The position numbers and the translations under genes are program-made. Positions 4,176 to 20,072 of a DNA stretch of 64,000 nt are shown one piece after another. This DNA is from Deltaproteobacteria bacterium (GTDB lineage Bacteria; Desulfobacterota; Deferrisomatia; Deferrisomatales; BM512), in the NCBI GenBank assembly GCA_002869015.1, contig PKTT01000006.1, positions 1 through 64,000 of the forward strand. The letters run 5' to 3'. Below the pieces are notes generated by a model. That model made no database searches, was not told the origin of the DNA, and saw nothing but the letters and a program-made list of their open reading frames with translations. Positions within the stretch are counted from its first letter, which is position 1. Every line of letters begins with the position of its first letter.

Positions 4176-4222
4176 TGACACACTCCCTGTAGAGTTTAAC
4201 AAAGGACGGTTTCTAAAGAAAA

Positions 4223-4306: not shown

Positions 4307-5947
4307 TCAAAATTCTTCCCGACCCCCCGGATCGTGTTCATCGAAGATCGCGTCATCAATAGGTATTTTGATATCCCACACATTTTCCTTCAATGAAACC
4401 TCCGCCCCTGCCTTGAGGTGGATGGCATGACGGCCGAAGTCGCCGAGCGTATTACCCTCAAGGCTCATGGAGGAGGCCTCTACACCTATGAGGTCAAGGC
4501 CAGCGCCCTTAATCTCATTGGTTAAGAGCGTCGCGCCATCTATATAGCTTGTCGATAGGCCGGTCTCTACGGTGCCGATTATTGAGTTGCCCCTAAGCGC
4601 AAGGGTTGTCCCCTCCCCCCTGGCGCGCACCCCTATCCGGCCCCCCGCAATCACGTTGCCCGACATTGAGAGGGTCGACTCCTTAGCGAGAATACCGCCA
4701 AGGCGGGTGTCATAAACCCGGTTGTCTTTAAAGTGGATATCCGCCCTGAATCCATGCAGCGTGTAATCATTGCCCTCAAAGAGGCACCCTGAGATTTCGA
4801 CGTCGGAGTCCCTGAAGCGCACGGCCTGTTTGTTACCCGCGAAGGTTGAGCCTCTAACTGTAGTCCTCTCCGACTCCTGGAACTGGAGGGCGCGAATATT
4901 ATTGGTGAAGTAAACCGTATCAACGGCAAGGGAAGAGAAATGGGCGTGGAGCGCCTGTAGCCCATCTCTGAAGATGGCGTTTCGTACGACGTTCCCATCA
5001 TCCATTGAGGAGATTATCGACAATTTGTCCCAATCACCAGGCAGAGGCGCCTCCTCGGCTGACTGGAATATTACCGGCGCATCATCTGTGCCGAGCACCC
5101 TTATGCCGCCCGTCACCAGGATCTCCCCCTCGCCCAGCCCATCGCCATTCGTGTCGTGCTTCCTGAATGAAACGCGGGTTCCCTCCGTTATTGTGAGCGT
5201 TGAGCCGGGGGGAACTGTAACACGGCCGGTTATGATGACCTCGCCACCCCAGCTTTCATCACCCTCTACTGTGTATTCGCCCAGAAGCTCCCTGCTACCG
5301 CCAATTGGCTCCGCCAAAGATGGCGGCTCAGGCAACATTGCACGCTCACCAACAAAATAGAGCCGCTCCGCATCCTCAGCCAGCTGTATCTCCACGCCGG
5401 GCAGGTATTGGGCATTCTCCCGCATATCGACAACGCCGACCTTGGGGTGGTTGATAGTTACGGCGGAGGCATCCAGCATGGAGCCCGGTCCTGCTACGAG
5501 ACCGTAATCGCAGTTGTTGAATTGGGTATGGTTCAAAGAGGCGTCACCCCCCGCGACGAGCACTCCCTCCAGCGCCCTCTCTATGCGGGTATAGGAGAGC
5601 GCTGCGCGCCCGCCGGGCGCTACAACAATGCCGCCCCAGCTCTCCTCATCCGGGATAAGGGCCACGGGCTCACGCTCGCTGCCCTCAATCATGAGCACCC
5701 CCTCCACGGAGAGTTCAGTCTCCGGGCTCCAGTAGGCAGGCTCTGTCTTTGTGGAGAGCGCCTGGGCGAACTTCACCCTTGCTCCGGGGGCGATAGTCAG
5801 CGTTACACCGGGCAGCACGCGTATATCATCATCAACGTAGACCTCTCCCATCCACGTGGTATCGACGGATATGACGCCGCCCCACGAAGTGGCTGCGAAG
5901 GCCAGCGCGGAAAGGATTAAAGCTACTTTCAACGTGATTTTTTTCAT
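4307..5947 (-). CDS. secreted right-handed beta-helix repeat protein
   Basis: The protein has 546 residues with a signal peptide (MKKITLKVALILSALAFA, cleavage near residue 23). Almost all the rest is beta-helix-like repeats: G-V-T-L-T-I-A-P-G, FTNNIRALQF, FAGNKQAVRF, LFEGNDYTLHG and similar turns with ladder-forming N-N, N-x-V and G-x-x-I patterns, typical of parallel beta-helix (PbH1, NosD/pectate-lyase-like) folds. Two halves look related: LPGVTLTIAPGARVKF and VPPGSTLTITEGTRVSF are parallel segments. No catalytic residues could be assigned. It begins 12 bases after the HEAT-repeat gene and so is probably the last gene of the large operon. A role binding or processing a surface polysaccharide is a guess from fold and context. 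Confidence 0.75.
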   Translation of the reverse strand: MKKITLKVALILSALAFAATSWGGVISVDTTWMGEVYVDDDIRVLPGVTLTIAPGARVKFAQALSTKTEPAYWSPETELSVEGVLMIEGSEREPVALIPDEESWGGIVVAPGGRAALSYTRIERALEGVLVAGGDASLNHTQFNNCDYGLVAGPGSMLDASAVTINHPKVGVVDMRENAQYLPGVEIQLAEDAERLYFVGERAMLPEPPSLAEPIGGSRELLGEYTVEGDESWGGEVIITGRVTVPPGSTLTITEGTRVSFRKHDTNGDGLGEGEILVTGGIRVLGTDDAPVIFQSAEEAPLPGDWDKLSIISSMDDGNVVRNAIFRDGLQALHAHFSSLAVDTVYFTNNIRALQFQESERTTVRGSTFAGNKQAVRFRDSDVEISGCLFEGNDYTLHGFRADIHFKDNRVYDTRLGGILAKESTLSMSGNVIAGGRIGVRARGEGTTLALRGNSIIGTVETGLSTSYIDGATLLTNEIKGAGLDLIGVEASSMSLEGNTLGDFGRHAIHLKAGAEVSLKENVWDIKIPIDDAIFDEHDPGGREEF

Positions 5948-5959
5948 GGGTAAAGTTTA

Positions 5960-6958
5960 TCAGATTCTGCGCACATACCAGCTGCCATCTTTTCGCTCGA
6001 CGAAATACCCCCTGCTTTTGAGGTGTCGTGCGATGGCTACCGTAGCCGAGTTTTCAAGAGGCGTCTGCTTAAGGAGTTCGGCAAGGCCGTCATCAACTAC
6101 AGGGTCATCGGTAAGATAGACGTTCACCCGCTGAAAGGCGGTCCAGATTAGCGGAATGGACTGCTCCCTCAGGAGGATGTCGCGAAGAGCGTTTAGGCGA
6201 GCTTTCTGGGCGTAGGGGAGGTTGTCCGAGAGCTCTATTGCATGAATCCTCAGCGCCTCGGAGGCGTTGTCGTCGAGGATTAGGCCGGAGATCGAATCCC
6301 ACGTTAACCGCCGCCATGCCATGAGCGCATCAAGCGCCGCCCACCTCACCTCGGGGGCGGGGTCGGTGGCTGATATGCCCTCGATCCTCGATATCACCGC
6401 CGGGGGAAGCGCTCCAACCTTTAGGTTTCCCACCGACTTGATCCCCTCTTTTCGAACCTTGCTGTTTTGATCTTCGAGGGCCTTTTCGAGAAAGAAAAGG
6501 TGGGTCAGCATGGTCCAGCGGCGCGTTGCTATGAGGGCCTGCGCGCGTACGGTGTAGTCAGGGTCGTCAACTACCAATTGAAGCACCTGACGGACCAGAT
6601 ACTTCTCCTTGACATCTCCCACAATCTTGGCGGCCATGTAGCGTATCTCATGGTCGGGGTCGGAGAGGAGCGACACCAGAAAAGCCCTGTCCCGGCCGCT
6701 TATGGGCGCTCGTTTGCCCCGGAAAAGCACCTCAAGGGCTTGCGCCCTGTAATGGGGCGGCTTTGATTTGTCTTTGAAGAAGCCCTCCACCGCAGCCTTG
6801 TCACCGGAGGAGATGATGGAGGCAAACTCCATGTGAGCGTCAATCGAGGCACGCGTATTGCCGAAATCCCCCCGCTGAACCGCGAGCCCCTCCCCTCCGG
6901 CCAGAAGCGCCAGCAGAAGGAGGGTAATAAATAGAGCTACGCGGTGGGTATTCTTCAG
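5960..6958 (-). CDS. exported HEAT-repeat protein
   Basis: About 332 residues. A hydrophobic signal segment (VALFITLLLLALLAGG) is followed by tandem alpha-helical HEAT-type repeats such as LLSDPDHEIRYMAAKIVGDV, VVDDPDYTVRAQALIATRR and LEDQNSKVRKEGIKSVGNL, with the family D-P-x-x-x-V-R-x-x-A pattern. These build protein-binding superhelices. The start is uncertain. The only conventional in-frame start is TTG at 7045, which would put 29 odd residues before the signal peptide and overlap the upstream gene by 73 bases. A CTG at 6958, with AAAGG 9 to 13 bases upstream, gives a clean signal peptide, so I use it. It is cotranscribed with the Tol/TonB-like genes and probably acts as a periplasmic scaffold. 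Confidence 0.75.
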   Translation of the reverse strand: MKNTHRVALFITLLLLALLAGGEGLAVQRGDFGNTRASIDAHMEFASIISSGDKAAVEGFFKDKSKPPHYRAQALEVLFRGKRAPISGRDRAFLVSLLSDPDHEIRYMAAKIVGDVKEKYLVRQVLQLVVDDPDYTVRAQALIATRRWTMLTHLFFLEKALEDQNSKVRKEGIKSVGNLKVGALPPAVISRIEGISATDPAPEVRWAALDALMAWRRLTWDSISGLILDDNASEALRIHAIELSDNLPYAQKARLNALRDILLREQSIPLIWTAFQRVNVYLTDDPVVDDGLAELLKQTPLENSATVAIARHLKSRGYFVERKDGSWYVRRI

Positions 6959-6972
6959 CGTCTTATGCCTTT

Positions 6973-8460
6973 CTACATGCTCGGGAAGAAGACGAAGGGG
7001 TATGTAACGGTGATATCCTTGGGCGCGACCTGCGGGAAGGTCCAACGTTTAATTCGTTTGACCATCGCCTCAACCAGAGCAGGGGCGTCCATTGTCGTCT
7101 CAACCACCTCAACCCCCTTAACGTTGCCCTCAGGATCGATAGTTATGGCGACGGTAACCTTGCCCTCAAGCTCCGGGTTCTTTCTAAGCTCGCGGTTGTA
7201 GAGATATCTTATACCGCCGAGGTATGTATCGACGGTGCGGTGAATTATAGCCACGGCCTCCTTCATGGAAAGATCATCAAGCTCGACGGTATCCTCCGAG
7301 GTCACCTCCGTGGCCTCGCGCTCCCTCAAGACGACACGCCTGGAGCCCGCTGCCCCCGCTGCGCCAGCTTCAGCGTCAAGGTTAGCTCCCTCGACGGCTT
7401 TGCCCTTCCAGGTGCCCGTCTCTGCGGGCGCGGCCTTAAGCCCCTCCACATTTTCGAGGACCTTGTCCAGGTCCTCCGCTCTTCCCCCGCCTTCAAGGAC
7501 AGAGGAGCGGGTATTTAAAGTGCTTGCACCGCCGCGGCCCCCTAAGACGCCGAGGAGCCCCTTCTTGGAGACCTCCTTGCGTATAGCCTCGCGGCGCTCC
7601 TCAAAGCTCTGCTGGGGCTCCTCCGTGAAGTCGGGGTCCTGATAGTCTTCGGGCAGTTTATCTACCTCGACAACCTCGACATCTTCAGGAAGCTCCTCAA
7701 CCGGAGTCAGCTCCTTCTTCTCCTCCGGCTCCTCTGGAGTGACCTCGACCTCCTCCGCCTTCACTTCTTCAGCCTCTTTTTTCGCCTCCTCATCGGCCTT
7801 CTTCTTTGCTTCCAGCTCCTTTTTAACGCGTGTCATCGCCTGGGGAGCTTCGTATACGAGCTTTGCAAAGCGGGCAGCGACCTTTTCAGGCTGCACCTCA
7901 GCCGGTATCTCAACAGAGGCGAGATAGACTGTCATGAGGGCAAGGAGCCCATATAAACTCCATGAGAAGAGGGTGAAAACCCAATCCTCACGGGCAAGCA
8001 GCGGACGCCTGAAGCGAAGGGGCACTCTCTGACGAGGCGCTTTGACCTTCTTCTCTTCCGGTATTTCAAGTCCGTAGCTGAAATAGCAGCGTGCTCCTCT
8101 ATACTCGAACCAGCCGCTAAGCTCTCTCGTTATCAGGAGGCGGCGCTTTTTGCCGCGGCCCCTGCTTATGTTCAGAACATCGAGGTCGGCGAAGTTTACG
8201 GTTGAGTAGCCGCCGGTAAGCTCCCCCTCCATCCCCTCTTTTAGATGGAGCTCCGGGCCGCGCATCGTAAAGGTTACGAGGGTCTCGCTCTCACCCGCGC
8301 CATCTATGGGGTAGGTGATCTCATTATCGAGCCCCGCGCCCCAGCGTATGCGCCCGCGCTTTCTTGCGACGTGCCCGACCACATTGCCGTCAAGCTCGCA
8401 CTGTAGATGCAGGTGGGTATTTCTCTTCTTGCGGGGGGTCTTTGGCGCCTTAGCCATCAC
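6973..8460 (-). CDS. TonB-like transmembrane protein with AgmX/PglI C-terminal domain
   Basis: The protein has 495 residues. The cytoplasmic part (about 15-135) is beta-rich and may be a degenerate FHA-like module. One transmembrane helix lies at about 160-183 (WVFTLFSWSLYGLLALMTVY). A long charged linker follows (210-300, KK, EE and EEP-rich, TonB-like), then a Gly/Ala-rich stretch and a C-terminal domain (about 396-495). That domain matches the AgmX/PglI family: NPELEGKVTVAITIDPEG, the spacing to RIKRWTFP, and the end VTYPFVFFPS. The order resembles GltG and GltJ of the Myxococcus gliding machine. The start is GTG at 8460 (GTGA overlap with the TolR gene) or ATG at 8457. It is expected to span the periplasm and transmit force from the adjacent TolQR-type motor. 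Confidence 0.85.
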   Translation of the reverse strand: MMAKAPKTPRKKRNTHLHLQCELDGNVVGHVARKRGRIRWGAGLDNEITYPIDGAGESETLVTFTMRGPELHLKEGMEGELTGGYSTVNFADLDVLNISRGRGKKRRLLITRELSGWFEYRGARCYFSYGLEIPEEKKVKAPRQRVPLRFRRPLLAREDWVFTLFSWSLYGLLALMTVYLASVEIPAEVQPEKVAARFAKLVYEAPQAMTRVKKELEAKKKADEEAKKEAEEVKAEEVEVTPEEPEEKKELTPVEELPEDVEVVEVDKLPEDYQDPDFTEEPQQSFEERREAIRKEVSKKGLLGVLGGRGGASTLNTRSSVLEGGGRAEDLDKVLENVEGLKAAPAETGTWKGKAVEGANLDAEAGAAGAAGSRRVVLREREATEVTSEDTVELDDLSMKEAVAIIHRTVDTYLGGIRYLYNRELRKNPELEGKVTVAITIDPEGNVKGVEVVETTMDAPALVEAMVKRIKRWTFPQVAPKDITVTYPFVFFPSM

Positions 8461-8957
8461 TCCCCCTTATAGACCGCTAGAGATTGGTTGACGTACTCGG
8501 CCTGCCCCGCCGTATAGATAATCTTTTTAAGGAGCCTGAAGGGTACGTTGCGGTCACCCTGCAAAATTATCTCACCGGTAAAATCGACCTCTTCGCTGAC
8601 CTCGGCAACCGATTTGAGGGATTCGGCCTTTTGGCTCAGGACTGCGTAGAGGGGCTCAATTAGGAGCTCATCCGAGTTCATCGCCTCGGTTACGTCATCT
8701 ATGAGGAGCTTGCCGTCGACATAAAGCGCGGTGCCGTTAAAGCCAACCGCTACCGCCGGGTGCACATCCTCAATCGCCGTCGACTCGGGAAGGGAGATCG
8801 ACTTTGCAATCTGCACGAGCTGCCCCTCCGCAGAATAGCTTTTCAGGAGGAAGACGAGGAGTATGGTGAAGATGTCGATCATCGAGGTGATCTGGAGGCT
8901 CATCTCCTTGGGACCCTTGCGGCGGTGCTTTTTAGCCTTGCTGGGGGAAAATGGCAT
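8457..8957 (-). CDS. ExbD/TolR-family motor protein, copy with the membrane Asp
   Basis: The protein has 166 residues. A basic cytoplasmic N-terminus (KAKKHRRKGPKE) leads into one transmembrane helix (MIDIFTILLVFLLKSY) that keeps the aspartate (S-M-I-D) used for proton passage in the TolR/ExbD/MotB family. The periplasmic domain ends with the family feature of a VPFRLLKKII helix. I chose the ATG at 8957, which has GGAGGAG just upstream; the open frame reaches 9020 but that part overlaps the previous TolR. It is one of two adjacent TolR genes after one TolQ, the same stoichiometry of genes as aglR-aglQ-aglS. Confidence 0.88.
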   Translation of the reverse strand: MPFSPSKAKKHRRKGPKEMSLQITSMIDIFTILLVFLLKSYSAEGQLVQIAKSISLPESTAIEDVHPAVAVGFNGTALYVDGKLLIDDVTEAMNSDELLIEPLYAVLSQKAESLKSVAEVSEEVDFTGEIILQGDRNVPFRLLKKIIYTAGQAEYVNQSLAVYKGE

Positions 8958-8959
8958 CG

Positions 8960-9445
8960 CTACTCCTCCCCCGGCACAATTCTGTCGGCGAGGGAGACGC
9001 CTGGAAAGAAGGGCCTGCACTCATCCATAGTGTGGATGATGTCGTCGTAGACGACCTCATCCTCTATGAGGAGAATTATCGCCTGCTGGTGGGAGAAGCG
9101 CTTCTCTTTAAGCGCTTTAAGCTCCTCGGCCAGCTTGTCGAATTGGAACTTCCCATCGGTTAGAGGCAGCCTCTTTAAGACGTCCTCATCGGAGATAAGC
9201 TGGAATCCCTCATTGGTAACCGCCAGCGACAATGACGCCTTTATCTCGGCAGGGTCGGGCTGCTCTAGAAAGGTTGCCGCATCGACGCTTGGGAGGTTTA
9301 GCTCCACCGCAGCCACCTGCTCGAAGACCGCGGTCTGCAGGAGCATCGGCACGAGGACGACAAGGAGACTCATTACGGGTATGAGCGTAAGCTCAACTTC
9401 CGAGGTCTCCTTCCGCCTTCTTTTGGAAGGGCGGTAGCCGGCCAT
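8960..9445 (-). CDS. ExbD/TolR-family protein lacking the membrane Asp
   Basis: The protein has 161 residues with the same architecture as its neighbour: a short basic N-terminus (PSKRRRKETSE), one transmembrane helix and a periplasmic domain. The helix reads LTLIPVMSLLVVLVPMLLQ. The family normally has P-x-x-D here, but this copy has P-V-M-S, so the proton-carrying aspartate is replaced by serine. The pair in this operon is therefore asymmetric, one TolR with and one without the ionisable residue. The gene starts 3 bases after TolQ and ends 2 bases before the second TolR start, so all three are translated together. Confidence 0.85.
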   Translation of the reverse strand: MAGYRPSKRRRKETSEVELTLIPVMSLLVVLVPMLLQTAVFEQVAAVELNLPSVDAATFLEQPDPAEIKASLSLAVTNEGFQLISDEDVLKRLPLTDGKFQFDKLAEELKALKEKRFSHQQAIILLIEDEVVYDDIIHTMDECRPFFPGVSLADRIVPGEE

Positions 9446-9448
9446 TAT

Positions 9449-10075
9449 TTACTCGCCTTTGCGAAGGGCCGCGAAGAGATTGATCAGCTTGACGGAGTAT
9501 TCATCTATCTCATCGACTATCTTACCCGCCTTGGACTGTAGGAAGGCGTAAGCCACCATATTGGGAATCGCCACCATTAGACCGTAAGCGGTGGTGTTCA
9601 TCGCCATTGAGATGCCCTTGGCGAGCATCGCCCCCTTTTGGGAGGGGTCCGCACCGGCGACGGCGTCAAAGGCCTGCATAAGGCCGATGATGGTACCGAG
9701 CAGCCCCAGGAGGGTTGAGACGTTGGCTATCATTGAGAGGTAGTGGATGCGCTTTTCTACCAGCGGTATAACCGCGAGGGCCTCCTCGTCGACAGCGTTC
9801 TGGATGGCGCGCTCACCCTTTTTGGCAGCGCGCACACCTGCGCCCAGTATCCTCGGCAAGGGTGCGCCGCCGCAGAGCTTTGACGCGCCTTCAATGTCTC
9901 CATTTTCAAGGAGCTTTCTCAGCTCGGCAAAGAACTTGCCCCCATCCACGCTGAATTTGACTATGAGAAAGTAGGCGCGCTCCCCCATAACGGCAAGGCC
10001 AAGGCCGAGGGCCGCGGTGATCGCATACATAAAGATACCGCCATCGACAAACGCTCTGGCAATAGACTCAATCAT
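9449..10075 (-). CDS. MotA/TolQ/ExbB-family proton channel protein
   Basis: Inner-membrane stator subunit of 208 residues. Three transmembrane helices are visible: near the N-terminus (GIFMYAITAALGLGLAVMG), then ANVSTLLGLLGTIIGLMQAF and NTTAYGLMVAIPNMVAYAF. The last two contain the conserved LLGTIxGL and TTAxGLxVAIP motifs of TolQ/ExbB. With the two TolR-like partners it should form a proton-driven motor that energises the AgmX-domain protein. It is equivalent in gene order to aglR of Myxococcus, but Tol-Pal or TonB use is possible. No tolA, tolB, pal or TonB receptor lies next to it, which argues against both classical systems. Confidence 0.92.
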   Translation of the reverse strand: MIESIARAFVDGGIFMYAITAALGLGLAVMGERAYFLIVKFSVDGGKFFAELRKLLENGDIEGASKLCGGAPLPRILGAGVRAAKKGERAIQNAVDEEALAVIPLVEKRIHYLSMIANVSTLLGLLGTIIGLMQAFDAVAGADPSQKGAMLAKGISMAMNTTAYGLMVAIPNMVAYAFLQSKAGKIVDEIDEYSVKLINLFAALRKGE

Positions 10076-10099
10076 CGTTCTCTTCCCTTCCCTTATAAA

Positions 10100-10115
10100 A
10101 GGCGCGCCCGCGCCT
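10100..10115 (-). terminator. attenuator-like hairpin inside the operon
   Basis: Perfect 6-bp GC stem AGGCGC/GCGCCT with a 4-base loop. Read on the minus strand it is followed by TTTTATAAG. It sits in the 63-base gap between the small secreted protein gene and TolQ, the only sizeable gap between about 10.1 and 19.5 kb. It may reduce read-through into the motor genes or protect processed mRNA ends. The T-run is short. Confidence 0.35.
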
Positions 10116-10138
10116 GAATCAGTTATACCTTGCTACAG

Positions 10139-10459
10139 CTAATCTCCCCCGCAGAGGCGCTCGAAGTCAGAGGGCTTCAAGGGCGCCATCAGCGAGGGCG
10201 AATAATCCTTGTGCATCGAGCCCAGGTCAAGCCGCGCCTTTCGGCGAGGTATGATATAGAATACCTCCGGCCGCTCCAACTCACCGCGTATCTCTACATC
10301 CTCCATTTCAAGTTTGAGAGGCTCTTCCTCCACGGCAGCTTTCGGGATTGTCGACGTATCCGTTGGGGATTTTTCCTCTGCCAGCGCCGCCCCGGCAACT
10401 AACGAAGTCAACGCTATAAAGAGGACCCCCCTCAGGAAATTTCGAGAATGGGCCATCAT
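10139..10459 (-). CDS. small secreted protein of the Tol/AgmX cluster
   Basis: The protein has 106 residues. The signal peptide runs to about residue 28 (VAGAALA-EE). The mature part is about 80 residues, acidic, with the segment VEIRGELERPEVFYIIPRR that looks like a short beta-strand interaction motif. I do not recognise the family. The start overlaps the stop of the upstream TPR lipoprotein gene (ATGATG over TGA). It lies directly ahead of the TolQ gene, so it is probably a periplasmic accessory of that motor. Confidence 0.72.
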   Translation of the reverse strand: MMAHSRNFLRGVLFIALTSLVAGAALAEEKSPTDTSTIPKAAVEEEPLKLEMEDVEIRGELERPEVFYIIPRRKARLDLGSMHKDYSPSLMAPLKPSDFERLCGGD

Positions 10460-11616
10460 CCGCCCCCCTCTATCCGCTTGGCCGCTTTTAGCCAGCGGGC
10501 TACCTCTTCATCATCGCCCACCCTGGCGAGGTAGCGCTCGTAAAGCTCTATCGCCTCCCCATATCTGCCCATGTACTTCTCGTACAATATACCGAGATTC
10601 TTTAGCGCTGGGAGGTAATCTTTGCTCGCCTTGAGCGCATTTTTATATGCCGCCTCGGCGTCGAGGAGCTTGCCAAGCTCACGGCTTGCCAGCCCCAGGT
10701 TGTTGAACGCCTCCGGCCGGTAGCCATTTTCCAGCGTGGCCCGCTTGAAGAGGATTAAGGCCTCGGAGAACTTCTCCTGCCTCATATTGAGGAGCCCGAG
10801 GCCGTTTAGCGCCTCGTAGTTTGAGCGTTCACGCTCAAGCACCTCTTCATAGAGTGTTTTAGCCGCGCCCGCCCTGCCCTGCGCCATCTTCACCTCGGCG
10901 AGGAGGAGCTTTGCTATCAACGTCGTCTCACCGCCAACCCTCATGGCGCGAGTCGCCTCGCGCTCGGCGGCTGGAAAGTCGGCTTCCTCAAGGTAGAGCC
11001 TCGCCATATATAGGGCGTAGCGCCTTGAAGTCTCCTCATCGGTCATGCGCCCCCAGCTTTCAAGGGCCTCTTTGGCGTTGCCTACTTGATAATTGAGCCA
11101 GCCTATTCCGCCGAGCACTTCCTCTGGAACATTATCAAGGTCGGCGGTCAGCTCTCGCAGGAATTTTACCGCCTCATCCCCCCTGCCCTCACGATATGAC
11201 CAGAGGATGTAGGTATCGAAGGTGTCCTCATCACCCTCGCCGCGCTCAAGGAGCTGCTCCATCACCGGCAGACCACCCTTTGCGTCGCCGATGGCGTAGC
11301 GGGAGCGCGCTTCAAGGAAGAGGCCGCCCTCTACCTCGGGATTCATCCCACGCGCCACGCCAATAATCTCAATAGCCTTTTTGTAGTCGCCCGAGTCATA
11401 AAGGCCAAGCGCCTCAATGATCAGCTCCTCCGCGGTTTTGGGAACCTCAACCGGCGTCACCGCCGCCGGAGGGGCCTCATCCTTTACCTTTAGCGTGATC
11501 CCATCCTCGGTGGTCTGAGTAGAGGCCGCCTCCTCCTTAACCTCAACAGCGGCGGGGGTGCAGCCAATGGCGTAGAGCATAAGGAGCAAAGCTAAAAGGG
11601 CAAAGATCCTCTTCAT
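10456..11616 (-). CDS. TPR-repeat lipoprotein
   Basis: The protein has 386 residues. It has a lipoprotein signal peptide (MKRIFALLALLLMLYAIGC) with the lipobox AIGC, so it should be lipid-anchored after processing. Tetratricopeptide repeats cover roughly residues 70-375, seen as helices such as EALNGLGLLNMRQEKFSEAL, EAFNNLGLASRELGKL and PALKNLGILYEKYMGRYGEA. The ATG at 11616 forms an ATGA overlap with the upstream TPR gene; the open frame extends further upstream but only inside that gene. It is likely a scaffold between the outer membrane and the motor complex. TPR lipoproteins are part of Glt/Nfs machines, but I cannot assign a specific counterpart. Confidence 0.82.
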   Translation of the reverse strand: MKRIFALLALLLMLYAIGCTPAAVEVKEEAASTQTTEDGITLKVKDEAPPAAVTPVEVPKTAEELIIEALGLYDSGDYKKAIEIIGVARGMNPEVEGGLFLEARSRYAIGDAKGGLPVMEQLLERGEGDEDTFDTYILWSYREGRGDEAVKFLRELTADLDNVPEEVLGGIGWLNYQVGNAKEALESWGRMTDEETSRRYALYMARLYLEEADFPAAEREATRAMRVGGETTLIAKLLLAEVKMAQGRAGAAKTLYEEVLERERSNYEALNGLGLLNMRQEKFSEALILFKRATLENGYRPEAFNNLGLASRELGKLLDAEAAYKNALKASKDYLPALKNLGILYEKYMGRYGEAIELYERYLARVGDDEEVARWLKAAKRIEGGG

Positions 11617-14489
11617 CGCTTGACCTCCCACCCCTTGATCGGGTTCGGCGGCGGCGCCCATGCACCCACCAACTCCTCGCCACGCTGGAAAGCCCAGGGC
11701 AGAAGCGCTTCCAGGCGGGCGTATATCCTTTCGACCCACTCATTCCACGCGCCAGCCCTCTGCGCTGCGGCCACGCCCTTCCTGTAGAACTCTATGCCTC
11801 GCTCCTCAAGGGGAAAGGCTTTCTCCTCAATGAGAAACATATACTCTTCCAGCTCCTCTTCACTTAGCCCCTCGGGCTTCTCCGACTCCAGCAGCGCGAC
11901 CTTCATCTCCTCAAATGCCTCGCCTGCATAGTATAAAGATGCGGCTAGGGTCTCGGCATATGGAAGCGTAGCCGTGTCTATCAGGTGGCCGAGGGCTTTT
12001 TCCAGAGAGCGCTCCTTGGCTTCGAGGGCGGCGGCGAGGTCTCCGGCAAGGCGTATCTCGCTAAAACGCGCCAGCTCCTTCTCGCCAAGGGCAAGGGACG
12101 CCTTGGCGCGGTATACGTTCTCGTCACCCTCAGCCGGGGCTGCCCAGGAGAGAGCGTAGTACTCCTCGGCCTCCGGGAGCCTTTCCATGGAGTCGAGCAG
12201 CGCCCCTTTAAGGTAGAGCACCTGCGCATAGCGCCCGTCTGTGGGGAAGACCTCTTCAAATTCCGTGTAAAGTGACAGCGCGCGCGCTTTGTCGCCAGCC
12301 TTTTCAAAGGCCATCGCCGCGCGATAGAGATGCCCGGGGGCCTCGGCTGAGGTAACGTCGAGGCGGTAGAGGTCCTCATAGTTGACCGCCACGCCGCCCC
12401 AATCCCCAAGCGATGAGAGTATCTCAGAGGAGAGGGTAAGTGAGGACTCCGCATACTTGGAGGATTTATACTCCTCGGCGATCCTGCGGTACACCTTCGC
12501 CGCCTCCTCTTCGCGGCCCAGCTTCCTTAGAGCCTCGGCGCCTCGGTAGAGGGAAACCTGCGCAGCGTCGCCCTCCGGGAACTCCTTCGCCATTCTGAAA
12601 AAATGGGTAACAGCGCCCTCATTGTCCCCCGCAGCCTCGGCAAGCTCGGCCTCCTTGAAGATGGAGTAGGAGATGAGCTTTAGCGCCCGCTCGCGGGTCT
12701 CCTCAACGGGGTCTTTTTCGATGGTCTTTCTAGCCCAACCCTCAGCGTCGGCAAAATTCTCCTCCCTGAAATAGGAGCGGGCTATGCGCTCCGTGGCCTC
12801 AGGGTCAAGGGGGTTGCCGGGGAAGCGCTCGACAACAGAGCCAAACCCTCTGCGCGCGCCGTCAAAGTCCTCCTTGGCAAAGGAGAGCTCGCCTGCGGCG
12901 AAGAGCATCTCTGCGACGCCATCAGCGTCGGGGTTCAGCTCGACATAGCTCCAGTGGGCCTCAATGAGCTCGTCATAGCACTCTGAGCCCAGCTCGCAGA
13001 TCTCCCCCAGCGCCTCGACGCGCCTATAGGAGGCGTCCTCGCGGTGGTCTAAAATGGAGTCATAAAGGGCTACTTCCCTATACTTGTCTGCGGCTGCGCG
13101 GCTTTGCCCGGCCTCCTTGTAAGCCTGCGCCTGTGCGTAGGCCATCTCATAGCCATCCTCCCCGGAGATGCCAAAGAGCTCGTGGTAACGCTCATATTGA
13201 GTAACGGCATCCTCAATCGCCCCCTCGCCGCGCTGCGCCTTGGAGTGCCGGTAGAGGGCGGCAAGCCTGAGCCCCTCCTCAAGGCGCTCGTCACGCTCGC
13301 TCCTAAGCTCCTCACTCTTACCCTCATCCCAGGGTGTTCCGGGGCGGTAAAGGTCGTACCAGAGCTGCCGCCTCAGGTTTGCCGCCTCAGGGTCCTGCAT
13401 GGCGAGGTAACCATTTATGATCCCCCGCTCCATCGGGAACGCGACTTCGGTCAGCGGGTAGGCGGCGGTGCCTGTCTCATAGGCCCTCACTGCATCCTTG
13501 TGGCGGCTGCCCTCCATGTAGAGGTCGCCCAGAACCTTGAAGAGCAGGTCGCCATACTCCTTACCTGCCTCACGTCCATCCAGGTAGCCGACTACCCCGT
13601 CAACACCCTCCCACTCGACGAAGGTGCGCCCCATGATATCAAGCGCCTCGCCCTTGAGCGTTCTGTTCTGGGGGGTTTTCTCATCCATTATGTGGCTGAA
13701 GGTCTCTATGGCCACCGGATACATATCCAGCTTGTAGTAGCTCCACCCAAGCTTATAGAGCGCCTTGGCGCGGTACTCCTCGCGCCCCGAAGAAAGCACC
13801 TCGGAGTAATGGTCCACCGCTTCACGGTAGATGCCGAGGTTGAAGGCCGACTCGCCCATCCTCATGTGGATTTCAGTTGCATAGGGGGTATCGGGCGAGA
13901 GCTCGAGGACCTTGCCGTAATATCGTGCCGAGAGCACTACCTCACCCTCCTCGCCATAGAGGTAGCCGAGGTTGTACATTGCGGTTAGCGCCTGCTCCGA
14001 GGAGGGGTAATCGTCAGCGAGGGTGCGGTAGAAACCTATTGTTCGGGGGTATTTGTCGCCGGGGAGGATATCCATATCAGTACCCTCCTCGTAGGCGCTT
14101 TTAAGCGCCGCCTCCTCACGGCGGTAGGCAAGCTCCGCAAGGCGTAGCAAAATCTCCGGCTTTCGCTCCTCCGGGGTGCCGGGAAGCTCAAGGAGCTTCA
14201 GATACTTTTGCATCACCGGGGAATCTACTTTGGCGGCCTCGCCTAAGCTGCCCTTTGCCCCCTTTCGCTTCTCCTCAAGGGCCTTGACCCTTGCGGCAGC
14301 CTGGGCGCGAGCCTCCCTTAGCGACTGGGGCCGCTCACGGCGGATCTTCTTTCTGACCTCTTTAACCGCCTCTACCTCAACGTTTTTAGCAGGCTCCGCC
14401 TCTTTGGGCTCCTTGACCTGGGGCCCATCGACGCAGCCGGCGGAAATCGACGCGATGAGGATGGCGACAAATAAATTCCTTATCTTCAT
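11613..14489 (-). CDS. large TPR-repeat lipoprotein
   Basis: The protein has 958 residues. The N-terminus MKIRNLFVAILIASISAGC has a lipobox (SAGC). A basic, charged segment follows (VEAVKEVRKKIRRERPQSLR), then many TPR-type helix pairs from about residue 100 to 850. Examples are YNLGYLYGEEGEVVLSARYY, ALYKLGWSYYKLDMYPVAIE and GAEALRKLGREEEAAKVYRR. Repeats of this sort resemble YbgF/BamD-like and gliding-machine TPR proteins. The first codon overlaps the upstream stop (ATGA). As a long solenoid in the periplasm it could bridge cell-wall and outer-membrane parts of the complex. Confidence 0.85.
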   Translation of the reverse strand: MKIRNLFVAILIASISAGCVDGPQVKEPKEAEPAKNVEVEAVKEVRKKIRRERPQSLREARAQAAARVKALEEKRKGAKGSLGEAAKVDSPVMQKYLKLLELPGTPEERKPEILLRLAELAYRREEAALKSAYEEGTDMDILPGDKYPRTIGFYRTLADDYPSSEQALTAMYNLGYLYGEEGEVVLSARYYGKVLELSPDTPYATEIHMRMGESAFNLGIYREAVDHYSEVLSSGREEYRAKALYKLGWSYYKLDMYPVAIETFSHIMDEKTPQNRTLKGEALDIMGRTFVEWEGVDGVVGYLDGREAGKEYGDLLFKVLGDLYMEGSRHKDAVRAYETGTAAYPLTEVAFPMERGIINGYLAMQDPEAANLRRQLWYDLYRPGTPWDEGKSEELRSERDERLEEGLRLAALYRHSKAQRGEGAIEDAVTQYERYHELFGISGEDGYEMAYAQAQAYKEAGQSRAAADKYREVALYDSILDHREDASYRRVEALGEICELGSECYDELIEAHWSYVELNPDADGVAEMLFAAGELSFAKEDFDGARRGFGSVVERFPGNPLDPEATERIARSYFREENFADAEGWARKTIEKDPVEETRERALKLISYSIFKEAELAEAAGDNEGAVTHFFRMAKEFPEGDAAQVSLYRGAEALRKLGREEEAAKVYRRIAEEYKSSKYAESSLTLSSEILSSLGDWGGVAVNYEDLYRLDVTSAEAPGHLYRAAMAFEKAGDKARALSLYTEFEEVFPTDGRYAQVLYLKGALLDSMERLPEAEEYYALSWAAPAEGDENVYRAKASLALGEKELARFSEIRLAGDLAAALEAKERSLEKALGHLIDTATLPYAETLAASLYYAGEAFEEMKVALLESEKPEGLSEEELEEYMFLIEEKAFPLEERGIEFYRKGVAAAQRAGAWNEWVERIYARLEALLPWAFQRGEELVGAWAPPPNPIKGWEVKR

Positions 14490-16306
14490 TCACCCGACCT
14501 GTCGAGCTCGTTCTGCATTAGATGGAGGGCCTGCGCTTCATCCAGCGCGAAGCGGTCCGCCCTTAGCCGCAGCGCCTCCGCCCTCTTAAGCAAATGTTCC
14601 CTTGACGCTTTAAGCATCCCTTCCCGGACCTCATCTTTAATATCGTCAATTTCACCCTGAACCTTTTTGGCCCGGTCAACAAGAAGCGCGAGTTTGCCAT
14701 TGAGCGCCTTTAGCTTTTCCTTCTCGTCGGCGTTGGTCACCACCGCCTCATCGTAGGGGAGCTTTAGATTCTCATGCTCCACCCGACGGATTGCGAGCAT
14801 GCGATTAAGCTCTTTTTCGCGGACGGTTACGCGCTTTTTAATTCCCTCAAGGTAACCAAGCTGGGCAACCGCGAGTTCGCGGTTGGCGTCCTGGATCTTC
14901 CCCCAAAGCAGGGCCGCCCGCTCCTTTACGAAATCGGGGGTCTCCTCCCAGCTCGTCATAGCCACAAGGGTGTTTATGGCGTCCTGTGTCCATTTGATAA
15001 CCGCAAGGAGCTTATCCTGGTTCTCAATCAGAGACTCGATGCGCGGGCGATCCTCTTTTGGAAAGAGGGCCCCCACCTGAACGATGTCCAGATATTTATA
15101 GAGCCCGGCGTCCATATCATCGAGCTCGACGGCGAGGGCCTCTATCCAATCCTTGAGGACCCCTATCCGCTTTGAAATCTTAACGAGGCGCTCCTCCCTC
15201 AAGCTGGCGGCTTTTTGCGCCAGCGCCGCCCGCTCATTGAGCCTTGAGGCATTTTCTGAAACCCCGGACTCTATGTTCTCGGCGAGCGCCCGCATCCAGG
15301 CAATATCGACCTCCGGTAGGGGAGCGGTTAGCGCCATGCTCTGCTCCTCCCAGCTGTCGGCCCAGTCAAGGGCTGTGAGTCTGGCCTCGGAGTAGGAGGA
15401 GGCAGCCTCCTCATAAAACTCGTTTCTCTCAAGAACTTTGCCAAGCGCCCACTGATCCTCATGGGCATTCTCAGGGTCCTTGGTCATGGCGGTTTCAAAG
15501 GAGGCTATTGCGCGGACCATGTCTCCAATCTCCGCCGAGCACCACCCGATTGTCCTCAAAGATTCAGCATAAAAGGGAGTCTCCTCCTGAATGAGGGAGA
15601 GCTGGCTTATCGCCAGCCGCAGTAGCTTTTCACGCTGCTCAATCTCAACATCCTCGGTTGCGACAGCCGCTTTGTAGATTATGCGGCCCCTCGCCAGCCT
15701 GAGGTAATCGGAGAGATTCTTTTCCACAACCCTGTCGGGGTGGCTTTTCGTCGCATCTATTGCTTCGTCGATGTGCTCAATTGCCCCTAAGATATCCCCG
15801 TCCGACAGTGATATCTGGGCCATCGTGTAGCGTGCGTAGCTCTCAAGCTCCCCGCTATCGACCTTTGCAAGCAGGGGCAGCGCCTTGTCATATATCCCGA
15901 CCATGAAATAGCATTCACCAACCCTGTAGTTGAGGGTGGGGGGGTCCAAAAAGCGGCGCCCCTTGCTCTTTTCATAGAGTTCAACCACTGCGCCGTAGTT
16001 CCCCCGCTCAAACTCGTACTCGACGAGTTTTTCCAGCGCGGGGCCGTTGAATGAACCATCCGTCGAGCTTAGCCAGCCGAAGGTCTTTAATGCTTCCGGC
16101 ACTCTCCCCGTGTTTACTAGCGCTACTGCCCTAAAGTACCCCTGAGCACGGGAGACATCCTCGCCTGTAGGGATCAGCTTTACGGCGCGCTCCCAGCGCT
16201 CGGCAACCGCCGCGGATAGGCCCGCCTCGCCCCTCGGAATCGCATATGCGCACGATCCCGCCAGGGTTGCGGCCAAAAGTATCGCCGCCGCTACTCTACT
16301 TCCCAT
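14486..16306 (-). CDS. exported TPR and coiled-coil protein
   Basis: The protein has 606 residues. The signal peptide (residues 1-22, LAGSCAYA) contains a cysteine, so lipidation cannot be fully excluded, but the lipobox is poor. The first half is TPR-like (YFRAVALVNTGRVPEALKTF, YRVGECYFMVGIYDKALPLL, RTIGWCSAEIGDMVRAIASF). The second half, about 340-600, is long charged helices with a heptad-like pattern (RAALAQKAASLREERLVKIS, LALLVDRAKKVQGEIDDIKD), likely coiled coil. It overlaps the gene before it by 16 bases and the gene after it by 4. Its role is presumed structural in the same complex. Confidence 0.8.
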   Translation of the reverse strand: MGSRVAAAILLAATLAGSCAYAIPRGEAGLSAAVAERWERAVKLIPTGEDVSRAQGYFRAVALVNTGRVPEALKTFGWLSSTDGSFNGPALEKLVEYEFERGNYGAVVELYEKSKGRRFLDPPTLNYRVGECYFMVGIYDKALPLLAKVDSGELESYARYTMAQISLSDGDILGAIEHIDEAIDATKSHPDRVVEKNLSDYLRLARGRIIYKAAVATEDVEIEQREKLLRLAISQLSLIQEETPFYAESLRTIGWCSAEIGDMVRAIASFETAMTKDPENAHEDQWALGKVLERNEFYEEAASSYSEARLTALDWADSWEEQSMALTAPLPEVDIAWMRALAENIESGVSENASRLNERAALAQKAASLREERLVKISKRIGVLKDWIEALAVELDDMDAGLYKYLDIVQVGALFPKEDRPRIESLIENQDKLLAVIKWTQDAINTLVAMTSWEETPDFVKERAALLWGKIQDANRELAVAQLGYLEGIKKRVTVREKELNRMLAIRRVEHENLKLPYDEAVVTNADEKEKLKALNGKLALLVDRAKKVQGEIDDIKDEVREGMLKASREHLLKRAEALRLRADRFALDEAQALHLMQNELDRSGE

Positions 16307-16809
16307 CTGGCGGTGCCATCCTCATAGGTGACTATCCAGGTGAGACGCTTGGCGCGCTCCACTTTCATCTTCACGGGCTGGGCCATTAGCTCGTCCCTTG
16401 GCCCGAAGAGCAGCGAATGCTCCCCCGCGGCCAACCTAAGCTCTATAATCTCAAGAGGAAGGTCGCCCCCAAGGACGTTAAGCTCAGCGGGGGTCAGCGG
16501 CCTAGAGATTAGTGTCTCTCCATCAATATCAAGGGCGATAGCGCGGTCTACCCAGTCGGAGACCCTGCCGCGCATGAAGATAAAAACCCTCCCCGTCTCG
16601 CCCTCAAGCATCTGGCGCGTGAGGTCTTCAAGCTCCTCGCGTATTGAGGCAACCTCCTTTGAAAGCTCCTCTACGCGTTCCTCATAGTTTTTAACAGCGC
16701 GCTCGGCGTTAGCTGCGTCCTCTTTCTCATCGGCGAAGGCTGGTGAGGTAACTGAAAGCGCCATAAACGCCAAGGCGAATGCCATAAATATCAAGAGAAA
16801 TCTTTGCAT
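16291..16809 (-). CDS. small exported coiled-coil protein
   Basis: The protein has 172 residues from the ATG at 16809. That start has GAGAGGA at a good distance and lies 1 base beyond the upstream stop; longer starts would run into that gene. The signal peptide (MQRFLLIFMAFALAFMALS) is followed by a coiled-coil stretch (VKNYEERVEELSKEVASIRE) and a beta-rich C-terminal domain ending WIVTYEDGTARWEVE. The family is not recognised. It ends inside the start of the next gene. Position and export signal suggest a structural subunit of the machine. Confidence 0.75.
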   Translation of the reverse strand: MQRFLLIFMAFALAFMALSVTSPAFADEKEDAANAERAVKNYEERVEELSKEVASIREELEDLTRQMLEGETGRVFIFMRGRVSDWVDRAIALDIDGETLISRPLTPAELNVLGGDLPLEIIELRLAAGEHSLLFGPRDELMAQPVKMKVERAKRLTWIVTYEDGTARWEVE

Positions 16810-16810
16810 C

Positions 16811-18133
16811 TCAATCCTCTCTCGCGGAGTAGGCGGGCCAGCGCGCGCCCTCCCCCACCAGTTTTCTGGGGCCAAGAATCTTTCCATATCTGAGGAATTC
16901 ATCCCCCGGATTGTAAAGGAGATATATGAAACATTCCGCGCCGCTGCCGAAATCGTTGAAAGCGGTCACCACAAGCTCAAGGTCTTTGACCTTATCAGCC
17001 ACAATAGCGCTTGAGCGCCACCGCCCCTCCCCGTCAAAGAGCACCCTGACCCCCTCCGCCGCACGGTCAGAGAGGTCCGGGTCAGGGTCCTGCGGGTGGG
17101 TGTGCGCCTCTCCGCGCCAGCCGTGAATATCGAGGTCTACATCCTTGCCCTGCCAAATCAGGACTGCGAGGAGGGCCTTATCGGTATCCATCGAGGGGGG
17201 CAGCGGCAATTTCTCCCCCACCACGGTGAGCCCCCTCGGGTCAATTCCCTGCGCGTATGTTTCGGTGGCGAGTGGAAGGAGCGCGACGTGCGCCTCCGCG
17301 CTCCCCTTCTCCACTGTTACAGGGTAAGGAATGGGGCCGGCCCATATAACAACGTCGGTAAGGGTCTCCGGCACCTCCGCAACGAGTCTCGCCCAGCCCT
17401 TCTCGACAGACTCGACCCTTACCTTGAGCTCCTTTGAGGATTTGGGCTCGCGCCAGATAAGCTGGCTAGTGTAACGCTCATCCTTAAAGCTCCCCCCATA
17501 AGCTACACCACCCTGCCCCGCAGGGTAGAAATATGGAGCGAGCACCTCAAGGGTGCTGGCCTCCCAAAGCGTCTCCCCCTCCGGGCCGTTCGTGGCGAAG
17601 ATCAGCGGATCGACCCTCATATCCTTAAGTGCATCGATCCTGTTGCCCTCCTGCTTTTCAGGTACAGGCTCGAGGATAATCATCGGAGTTCGCTCAGGTT
17701 CTTTTGGCGGAGCCGGAGGCTCGTAGGGGAAGAGCTCCACCCAAACATCCTCACGGTCCGGCGACTCCCCCGAGGAGGCGCAGTAAAAAAGCCAGGGCTC
17801 TATCCCAAGCTCCTTTGAAAGGCGGTTCGCGGCAAATATCGCATATTGAAGCCCCAGCGCTTTGTTGAGCAATTTTGGGCCTGAGGAGTCTGTATGACCT
17901 ATTATCAAGATGGATTTTTCCCTGCCCGCTATCTCCTCCGCTGCCTTTAAGAAGGCATCGGGCAGGCGCTCCCCGGTAATTGAGAGCCGCTCTGCGCGCG
18001 CGGAATATTTATCAGCCATAACGGGCGGGCGCTCAAGGAGCACGGGGCCTTCACGGAAAGCGGCCGCTGCCCCGCCGACTGTTAGAAGGAGGGCCGCCAT
18101 GAGAAGCGCTTTTGTGATTACGCGCTTCATCAC
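16811..18133 (-). CDS. OmpA-like domain protein with DUF2135-like C-terminus
   Basis: The protein has 440 residues with a signal peptide. Residues about 45-135 resemble the OmpA C-terminal peptidoglycan-binding domain (ILIIGHTDSSGPKLLNKALG). The aspartate of GHTD is present, but the arginine expected 15 residues later, which contacts diaminopimelate in OmpA proteins, is tyrosine, and the NRRV-type end is absent. Peptidoglycan binding is therefore doubtful. A proline-rich linker follows. The C-terminal part (about 325-430, LIWQGKDVDLDIHGW to ECFIYLLYNPGD) resembles DUF2135 domains found next to von Willebrand-type proteins. It ends 1 base before the next gene and overlaps the upstream gene by 4. 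Confidence 0.72.
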   Translation of the reverse strand: MMKRVITKALLMAALLLTVGGAAAAFREGPVLLERPPVMADKYSARAERLSITGERLPDAFLKAAEEIAGREKSILIIGHTDSSGPKLLNKALGLQYAIFAANRLSKELGIEPWLFYCASSGESPDREDVWVELFPYEPPAPPKEPERTPMIILEPVPEKQEGNRIDALKDMRVDPLIFATNGPEGETLWEASTLEVLAPYFYPAGQGGVAYGGSFKDERYTSQLIWREPKSSKELKVRVESVEKGWARLVAEVPETLTDVVIWAGPIPYPVTVEKGSAEAHVALLPLATETYAQGIDPRGLTVVGEKLPLPPSMDTDKALLAVLIWQGKDVDLDIHGWRGEAHTHPQDPDPDLSDRAAEGVRVLFDGEGRWRSSAIVADKVKDLELVVTAFNDFGSGAECFIYLLYNPGDEFLRYGKILGPRKLVGEGARWPAYSARED

Positions 18134-19503
18134 CCCTCCAGGACCGTCCCGCTAAGGACCAGAAGAGGATCGCTCTTCAGGTTCTCCACAATCACCTCCC
18201 CTATTACCTTTACCCCCGGCTCAAAGCGCACATCTCCCTTTATGGTCAAGGCCTTTGCGTTTATCAGGCTTGGGGCAGAGGGTATCCTCATCTCCATAGA
18301 TTCTACCGATTTGTAAAAGCGCGGATCGAGGCTGACTACGGGCACCCCCAAAGCTTGTGAACGCTCTCGGTTCACCTCAAGAGGCGAAGTCTCACCTTTC
18401 ACATAAATATCGCTGCGGCGAACAAGGAGGTCAGATGTTGTTTTGACCGGTGCGAAGCGCCCCCGTGGCACTACAACACCCTCCGCCCCCTCAAAGGAGG
18501 AGATAGCCGCCCCCATCGCGCTCTCCAACTGTAAGATACCTACTCCATCCACCACTTTGCGGTTAACAATGAGCGGCAGCTCTAGGCCGCCCACCTCCAT
18601 GCGATCCTTCAGCGCCCTCAGATCAATCCACAAGTTGTTGGTGTTAAAAACTTTGAACCGGTCGATATCCTGGAACTCCCCTACCCGCTCATCGGCTACC
18701 TGCGCTATCTCAAGGAGGTTTAAGGACCCGCCTCTCTTTACCAGGGTGCCGCCCTTGACATCGGCTTTGGTGCGCTCGGTTACCTCCATGATAAATGGTA
18801 TGGAGCTACTCGACATGTAGCCGAGGAGCTGCGGTGATGGAGAGGCGCCCAAGTTGTCCGCATTGGAGATAAAAGCCCAACGCTTGCCCGCCGCCAATAG
18901 CTTATCCAAGACCCCGCTTCCATAGATAGCCTCATAGAGGTCGCCATGGCCCGGAGGCGCCCAGCTCTCCTCATCTTCCGGCGCGCCGTAGAGGCTCCCA
19001 TCCCTCTCGACTACCCTGGGGAAGAAGTTCTGCAAAAAGTCTTCGGGGAGCGTTTTGTTGGCCCTCTCATCACCATATCTCTCAAGCGCCGCCAGCGAAT
19101 CATCCCTCGTCGCGGGAGAGTTCATCAGGATGAGAGGTATTTCGACACCCGTTTCACCGGCGATTTTACCGATGAAGCCTAAAATCAGGTCGAGAAAGGT
19201 CTCCTCTCCCTTGACCTTCAAAAGGCTCTTTGCATGGGATACCTCCATAGAGGTTCCAAGCCCACCATTTAGGATGATCCATACCAATTCATCATAGCGC
19301 CCCACCCCCTCGTCGCCATACCCTAGCAGATCACTATATGATTTCAGCTCACCGGGGAGTGGAGGTTGAAATTCCTCCCAGGGGATGGTCCTCTCCTCAA
19401 CCCCAAGCGAGCGATTGTATGCTCTCAAAATAAGAGAAGCGCCGCGAGGATCTATCCCGGCTTTTTCATACCTCGCTTCGACTTGCTCTTTAAAACCGCT
19501 CAA
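18130..19503 (-). CDS. UTP-sugar-1-phosphate uridylyltransferase (UDPGP family)
   Basis: The protein has 457 residues. It carries the eukaryote-like UDP-glucose pyrophosphorylase signature: the nucleotide-binding LNGGLGTSME, GHGDLYEAI, SNADNLGA and a left-handed-beta-helix-like C-terminus (ALTIKGDVRFEPGVKVIGEV). It should make UDP-glucose or a related UDP-sugar from UTP and sugar-1-phosphate, or act on UDP-N-acetylhexosamine. The TTG at 19503 is chosen because GGAG lies 7 bases upstream; an upstream TTG at 19572 has no such signal. As the first gene of the operon it suggests that the machine handles or needs a polysaccharide. The exact sugar cannot be told by eye. Confidence 0.82.
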   Translation of the reverse strand: MSGFKEQVEARYEKAGIDPRGASLILRAYNRSLGVEERTIPWEEFQPPLPGELKSYSDLLGYGDEGVGRYDELVWIILNGGLGTSMEVSHAKSLLKVKGEETFLDLILGFIGKIAGETGVEIPLILMNSPATRDDSLAALERYGDERANKTLPEDFLQNFFPRVVERDGSLYGAPEDEESWAPPGHGDLYEAIYGSGVLDKLLAAGKRWAFISNADNLGASPSPQLLGYMSSSSIPFIMEVTERTKADVKGGTLVKRGGSLNLLEIAQVADERVGEFQDIDRFKVFNTNNLWIDLRALKDRMEVGGLELPLIVNRKVVDGVGILQLESAMGAAISSFEGAEGVVVPRGRFAPVKTTSDLLVRRSDIYVKGETSPLEVNRERSQALGVPVVSLDPRFYKSVESMEMRIPSAPSLINAKALTIKGDVRFEPGVKVIGEVIVENLKSDPLLVLSGTVLEG

Positions 19504-19619
19504 GGGAGTTCTCCGGTGACCCGTGATAATAAACAAATGAATATTTGAACAAAGTTGGGCGGCAAGCGTCAAGCTAACTAAGTTTTTGTAATATTAGGAA
19601 GTGGGGGTACGCTGAAGGC

Positions 19620-20036: not shown

Positions 20037-20065
20037 TTGACTAGTAAGACAGCGCTTGCTAGATT
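20037..20065 (+). promoter_or_regulatory. sigma-70-type promoter of the sigma-factor gene
   Basis: TTGACT (20037-20042), exactly 17 bases, then TAGATT (20060-20065). The expected transcription start, near 20072, is at the base before the ATG at 20073, so the mRNA may be leaderless. No Shine-Dalgarno sequence precedes that ATG, which agrees. Confidence 0.5.
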
Positions 20066-20072
20066 TACATCC

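Follow-up and report, generated by a model that had tools for sequence, protein, structure and literature searches.

Gene content and core parts of the operon

The window considered here, a stretch of 64,000 nucleotides from contig PKTT01000006.1 (C40 in our numbering) of a Deferrisomatales metagenome-assembled genome (MAG; 2.5 Mb, 95% complete), carries on its minus strand 13 open reading frames (ORFs) that tile positions 19572 to 4307 as a tight transcription unit, and this operon is a new, standalone branch of the known Agl-Glt core class. Consecutive ORFs mostly overlap by 1–16 bp or are spaced by less than 20 bp, the largest gap (63 bp) lying before the TolQ gene, which bears out the tight minus-strand run claimed by an earlier sequence-only reading of this DNA. 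In the order of transcription (window coordinates, minus strand), the unit encodes a UDPGP-family uridylyltransferase as the first gene here (18130–19572; Pfam 3e-125), an exported 440-aa protein with a degenerate OmpA-type peptidoglycan-binding fold and Ig-like domains (16811–18133; Pfam OmpA 0.004), a short exported coiled-coil protein of about 172 aa seen only in Deferrisomatales (16291–16809), an exported TPR and coiled-coil protein of 606 aa in the GltC position directly upstream of gltD (14486–16306), a large GltD-like TPR protein of 958 aa (11613–14489) and a GltE-like TPR protein of 386 aa (10456–11616), both with lipoprotein-like leaders (SAGC and YAIGC, respectively), and a GltF/CglF-like small exported protein of 106 aa with a signal peptide and a motif around EIRGELERPEVFYIIPR (10139–10459). 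These are followed by a TolQ/MotA-type proton channel subunit of the AglR type (9449–10075; Pfam MotA_ExbB 3.7e-27), TolR1 in the AglQ position (8960–9445; Pfam ExbD 5.6e-11), TolR2 in the AglS position (8457–8957; Pfam ExbD 4.3e-12), a GltG-type transducer of 494 aa with the AgmX tail (6973–8457), an exported HEAT-repeat protein of about 332 aa (5960–6958) and an exported right-handed beta-helix (NosD-like) protein of 546 aa (4307–5947). An exported N-acetylmuramoyl-L-alanine amidase with a LysM-like N-terminus, judged by eye, is encoded 104 bp past the beta-helix gene (2952–4202, minus strand; Pfam Amidase_2 4e-17). The Pfam and NCBIfam calls made on the window proteins agree with the domains listed previously (TolQ, two TolR, AgmX/PglI tail, TPR, OmpA, HEAT, beta-helix and UDPGP), to which the 106-aa ORF, the conserved amidase gene and the loss of an Asp residue in the first TolR are now added.

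The GltG-type protein is composed of an FHA-like cytoplasmic domain (residues about 1–135), a transmembrane (TM) helix (about 158–182), an acidic linker and an AgmX/PglI (TonB-like) C-terminal domain; Myxococcus GltG has been described as FHA, TM and TonB-like end (PMC3169522). Its NCBIfam scores are 88.9 bits for myxo_SS_tail (NF033768, 1.8e-25) and 69.9 bits for GltG (NF033760, 1.6e-19), against 33 bits for the TonB C-terminal family and 15 bits for the TonB protein. The protein is termed GltG-like rather than a myxobacterial equivalog, because the score lies under the 650-bit GltG equivalog cut-off. Residues 1–135 are modelled as a beta-sandwich (AlphaFold2, AF2; mean domain pLDDT 79), for which the structure matches in the PDB are mainly FHA domains and their relatives, many with probability 0.9–1.0 and TM-scores of about 0.4–0.6; since the E-values of these matches are 0.01 or weaker, the domain is called FHA-like, short of a proven FHA. 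Searching the PDB by sequence gave no useful match for either the GltG-like or the beta-helix protein. For comparison with myxobacteria, Myxococcaceae genomes with a GltG above the cut-off were taken as references, and their glt and nfs-like loci were compared protein by protein; blastp with the GltG-like protein gave 7e-19 (nfs-like) and 6e-13 (glt). The proposed relation to Agl/Glt/Nfs thus stands, the AgmX protein grouping with GltG and its N-terminal domain being FHA-like as in GltG.

Among the scaffold candidates, the GltD-like protein matches myxobacterial GltD and its nfs-like paralogues with an hhalign E-value of 1e-69 over 855 columns (blastp 5e-23). The GltE-like protein is in the right position and matches the NCBIfam GltE model at 4.6e-9, below other TPR models and with PilW scoring higher; blastp gave 1e-3 to 2e-5 against GltE and 1e-11 and 2e-9 against the paralogues of nfs-like loci. 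The 106-aa ORF follows the gltE-like gene, which is the usual place of gltF (GltF being identical to CglF; PMC4488436), and matches the NCBIfam CglF model at 2.9e-4. A GltF profile built only from non-myxobacterial members picks out the CglF/GltF ORF in those myxobacterial glt and nfs-like loci that were sampled, at E 1e-7 to 5e-4, the top unrelated ORF among 5279 scoring 0.033. The match is short (about 50–80 residues) and does not reach the 90-bit myxobacterial equivalog cut-off; the homology is weak but specific. The 606-aa protein aligns with the TPR proteins encoded upstream of gltD in Nitrospirota and others (hhalign 99.6%, E 1e-24), some of which match the GltC model at 1e-5 to 7e-3, and has a weak direct profile match to myxobacterial NfsC (E 0.001, prob 20); no single-sequence match was found in Myxococcaceae. 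The counterparts of AglR, AglQ, AglS, GltG and GltD can be placed in the core class with good support, and the case for a GltF counterpart is fair, those of GltC and GltE being candidates. Elsewhere (L041/L067, 760–4788), the GltD-like and GltE-like TPR regions share one open frame of 1342 aa, a possible fusion.

Loci in other genomes were scanned with the GltG tail as query, the GltD alignment offering no conserved stretches. Each of the 12 Deferrisomatales genomes sampled (G000–G011) carries the cluster, several copies being truncated by contig ends; a closed 4.2-Mb chromosome has it as well. G003 had been considered as a genome without the machine, a view rejected after the first half of its cluster was found at a contig end, where the clusters of G003 and some others are partial. 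The run kept in the order comprises OmpA-Ig, coiled-coil, GltC-like, D, E, F, TolQ, TolR1, TolR2, GltG-like and HEAT. In the family of the window, the beta-helix and amidase genes directly follow the HEAT gene; in other families, about 3 kb between the HEAT and beta-helix genes (L031, 4100–6100; L034, 12870–15330) encode two 2-TM proteins, a multihaem CXXCH protein and a Fur-type regulator, as judged by eye. The amidase gene neighbours the cluster in G001, G002, G006, G007 and G011. Outside Deferrisomatales the core alone was found; its genes are arranged identically in MAGs whose record titles read Nitrospirota, Nitrospinota, Desulfuromonadales and others. Because the AgmX protein groups with GltG and the arrangement of the genes is conserved throughout Deferrisomatales, and that of the core across phyla, neither of the two outcomes named beforehand as speaking against the relationship (grouping with ordinary TonB or TolA; gene order unconserved in relatives) occurred. 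One Deferrisomatales genome has a second, divergent core-type operon (L045, G009:C146) encoding a TolR1 with Asn and a 921-aa GltG-like protein.

The TolR pair and its TolQ

The TolQ of the window falls into one clade with myxobacterial AglR and the TolQ of other TolQ-TolR-TolR operons (49 rows, SH-aLRT 99), separate from three other TolQ/ExbB proteins encoded in the same genome and from four Myxococcaceae ones. Its blastp match to the myxobacterial locus protein reaches 7e-46, and its best match in Myxococcaceae (40%) belongs to a TolQ-TolR-TolR operon. Two different TolR proteins adjoin TolQ, as in the Agl-Glt core complex; against the myxobacterial loci, TolR2 gave 3e-16, being closest to the gene in the AglS position, and TolR1 gave 5e-10.

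The most interesting point of the analysis is the one-sided loss of the proton-binding Asp from this pair. At the site of the proton-carrying Asp of TolR/ExbD/MotB, TolR1 has a Ser (TM helix TLIPVMSLLVVLVP, around LIPVMSLLVVL), as in Deferrisomatales generally, whereas TolR2 keeps the Asp (SMIDIF, within ITSMIDIFTIL). In 142 tandem pairs from fetched loci, some of them overlapping, TolR2 carries Asp without exception, whereas TolR1 has Asn in 56, Ser in 42, Asp in 36, Cys in 6 and a gap in 2; this sample was drawn by similarity, is non-random and leaves out Gammaproteobacteria and Geobacter. Reduction to a non-identical set of 98, a few members of which still come from the same operon, gives Asn 48, Asp 33, Ser 15 and Cys 2 for TolR1 against Asp 98 for TolR2, so that 65 of the 98 TolR1 sequences, drawn from several phyla, have Asn, Ser or Cys in place of the Asp; outside the myxobacteria, most of the sampled relatives show this loss. 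TolR1 with Asp was found in Myxococcaceae, both of whose TolRs carry the residue, in one Nitrospirae MAG, in G072 and in nearly all sampled genomes of the phylum of a Bradymonadales MAG. TolR1 and TolR2 lie on opposite sides of one branch of the tree and are split by a single change, and the TolR1 residue itself has changed at least seven times on a TolR1 tree computed without that column; ordinary TolR/ExbD proteins of the same genome retain the Asp. TolR pairs of the same type occur in the phylum of a Chitinispirillum MAG. TolR1 of the window type is present in 21 of 296 genomes of the phylum to which the source organism itself belongs, and G012 and G098 each have two copies.

In Myxococcus xanthus, the D28N substitution in AglQ abolishes both proton conductance and movement, Asp28 being essential (PMC3858216). 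The searchable literature, which excluded most subscription journals, yielded no report of Asp-less AglQ homologues. On the TolQ side, residue 157 is Met at the TM3 Glu site (the position of ExbB Glu176, aligned by eye); this site is hydrophobic in most operons without the Asp and Glu or His in most operons with it (68 of 74 concordant), and no correlation with the TolR1 Asp is claimed, because only 2–5 independent contrasts are available.

Proposed machine and alternatives

We consider it likely, at roughly two chances in three, that the products of the operon form a proton-driven machine which spans the envelope and belongs to the Agl-Glt core class, with an asymmetric motor, a GltG-type transducer and a TPR scaffold. 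The AglR-type TolQ subunits would assemble into an inner-membrane ring, with TolR1 and TolR2 as a heterodimeric rod pair within it; only TolR2 carries the proton-binding Asp, so that the motor would be asymmetric. Its motion, possibly a rotation, would be carried across the periplasm by the TonB-like tail of the GltG-type protein and received by a scaffold made up of TPR and small proteins of the GltC/D/E/F types, whose lipoprotein-like members are probably located at the outer membrane. In place of the Myxococcus barrels, the outer part in Deferrisomatales may consist of the order-specific OmpA-fold/Ig, coiled-coil, HEAT and beta-helix proteins, the amidase, also order-specific, bringing the number of such genes to five. 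The model of the OmpA-like protein shows an OmpA/Pal fold and, after it, Ig-like domains (AF2, mean pLDDT 66; PDB matches to OmpA/Pal with probability 1.00 and to Ig folds), the usual diaminopimelate-binding Arg apparently being replaced, as judged by eye. The amidase may open or mark peptidoglycan; it can be compared, as an analogy only, with AgmT, the lytic transglycosylase through which the motors of M. xanthus gain a hold on peptidoglycan (PMC11444678). Most likely, the machine would move adhesins or material attached to the cell surface (gliding or surface transport), in a non-flagellated bacterium; the source genome gave no FlhA match.

Several points weigh against this proposal. That the order-specific proteins interact with the core is suggested by gene neighbourhood only, the evidence for GltE consists in part of generic TPR similarity, and the assignment of the 606-aa protein, which is probably GltC, is indirect. 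Moreover, Luciano et al. judged motility from the core alone unlikely (PMC3169522), and functional data on standalone core complexes were not found.

The conserved pairing of the TolRs together with the one-sided loss of Asp speaks for a heterodimer whose members divide the work between them. Whether Agl-Glt core machines are asymmetric in general, that is, whether a TolQ ring holds a fixed heterodimer in which the proton is bound only by the AglS-type rod, the AglQ-type rod being inert or acting differently and the two-Asp myxobacterial motor being one state of the family, appears to us evenly poised; a hand-over-hand scheme with one AglQ and one AglS has been proposed earlier (PMC9120999). 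A competing arrangement, which we regard as less probable but worth serious attention, places two Asp-bearing TolR2 subunits in the ring of an ordinary symmetric 5:2 motor and TolR1 outside it, where it might, for instance, serve as an anchor to peptidoglycan or as a regulator. It would account for an Asp that is always present in TolR2 and usually absent from TolR1, and the published account leaves undecided whether AglQ and AglS, both described with Asp, form homo- or heterodimers, and in what stoichiometry (PMC9389320); however, TolR1 retains a complete TolR domain and TM helix and adjoins TolR2, with TolQ upstream, and Asp28 of AglQ is itself essential in M. xanthus. The natural Asp-less variants make the question of homo- versus heterodimer testable.

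A role in building or placing a polysaccharide at the cell surface, comparable to that of Nfs in the spore coat, concerns the cargo and would be compatible with the asymmetric machine, but seems rather unlikely. Besides the relation to Nfs, it is favoured by the UDPGP gene heading the transcription unit in the family of the window and by the beta-helix protein, such folds often binding polysaccharides. However, the cluster contains no glycosyltransferase or export gene detectable with Pfam or NCBIfam, and the UDPGP gene, present as one copy in each of 11 of the 12 genomes (that of G001 being split over two contig ends), adjoins the cluster solely in the family of the window and lies elsewhere in the genome in G005–G008, G010 and G011. 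The enzyme, rejected as a part of the machine on account of this lack of linkage, is probably not one. Since the gene is not generally linked, the earlier inference that the operon moves or builds a polysaccharide loses its main support; it has no direct evidence left and is possible by analogy to Nfs and slime transport.

A variant of Tol-Pal or Ton serving envelope stability or substrate import is improbable: the TolQ, TolR and TonB-like parts and the OmpA-fold protein would suit it, but the TolQ belongs to the AglR clade, away from the other TolQ/ExbB of the genome, the transducer has an AgmX/GltG-type tail, and the operon contains no TolB, Pal lipoprotein or TonB-dependent receptor. Finally, the idea that the Ser, Asn or Cys of TolR1 is an alignment artefact, with the Glu or Asp that TolR1 has about 9–11 residues earlier acting instead, is largely refuted by TM alignments that are ungapped beside a conserved Pro and show Asp in the identical column in Asp-bearing TolR1 relatives.

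As for the surroundings, a FliA/WhiG-type sigma gene (20037–20849, plus strand, with 19620–20036) lies divergent to the operon in this genome without a FlhA match. It was rejected as a regulator: it is the divergent neighbour in G000 and G002 (beside the UDPGP gene, L188) and not in G003 (L196), and the 47-bp intergenic region has no sigma-28-like match, such matches elsewhere resembling chance. Further away, a multihaem cytochrome beside a 399-aa exported protein with no Pfam match (58–2110) may form a porin-cytochrome pair and is kept in G001, and an IspD-IspF fusion enzyme adjoins a PIN-TRAM protein (20865–23044).

Comparison with known systems

With Tol-Pal and ExbBD-TonB, the operon shares a TolQ/TolR motor and the TonB-like end of a transducer, but it has a TolQ of another clade, two TolRs, a cytoplasmic FHA-like transducer domain and a TPR scaffold. 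With the Nfs spore-coat machine, it has in common the GltC-D-E-F-G-type gene order kept in nfs-like clusters; however, Nfs lacks its own motor genes and depends on AglRQS (PMC3858216), and its outer-membrane parts differ, no NfsA/B-type barrel being present in the window cluster. In M. xanthus, AglR binds both GltG and NfsG, and the movement of Glt and Nfs is driven by AglRQS (PMC3169522, PMC3858216). The Myxococcus gliding machine likewise has an AglRQS-type motor, a GltG-type FHA-TM-AgmX transducer and GltD/E/F-type parts, whereas in the window the motor genes lie inside the glt cluster and TolR1 has Ser where AglQ has Asp. As the earlier reading had noted for gltA/B, the cluster contains none of the gltA/B/H barrels, nor GltI, GltJ or GltK (Pfam/NCBIfam); genome-wide, where some GltA/B/K models were not searched, only sub-cut-off matches to the myxobacterial outer-membrane barrel family were obtained.

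The closest relatives are the standalone seven-gene Agl-Glt core complexes (AglR/Q/S and GltC/D/E/G) reported from Gammaproteobacteria, Fibrobacter, Geobacter and others (PMC3169522, PMC3858216), which likewise form one cluster with one TolQ, two TolRs, a GltG-type transducer and TPR proteins and have no group A barrels. The operon had been called an undescribed variant, which holds for the variant but not for the core class, known since 2011–2013. It may differ from the published complexes in its TolR1 without Asp, and it does differ in lying in a new order, in adding the OmpA-Ig, coiled-coil, HEAT, beta-helix and amidase genes, and in containing a GltF-like gene inside the core. GltF was placed by Luciano et al. 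among genes limited to Myxococcales and Bdellovibrionales, as late additions in the 2011 scheme (PMC3169522); should a GltF-like gene occupy this position in the core operons of several phyla, GltF would be an ancestral component. The order-wide cluster allows the function of standalone core complexes to be studied outside the myxobacteria.

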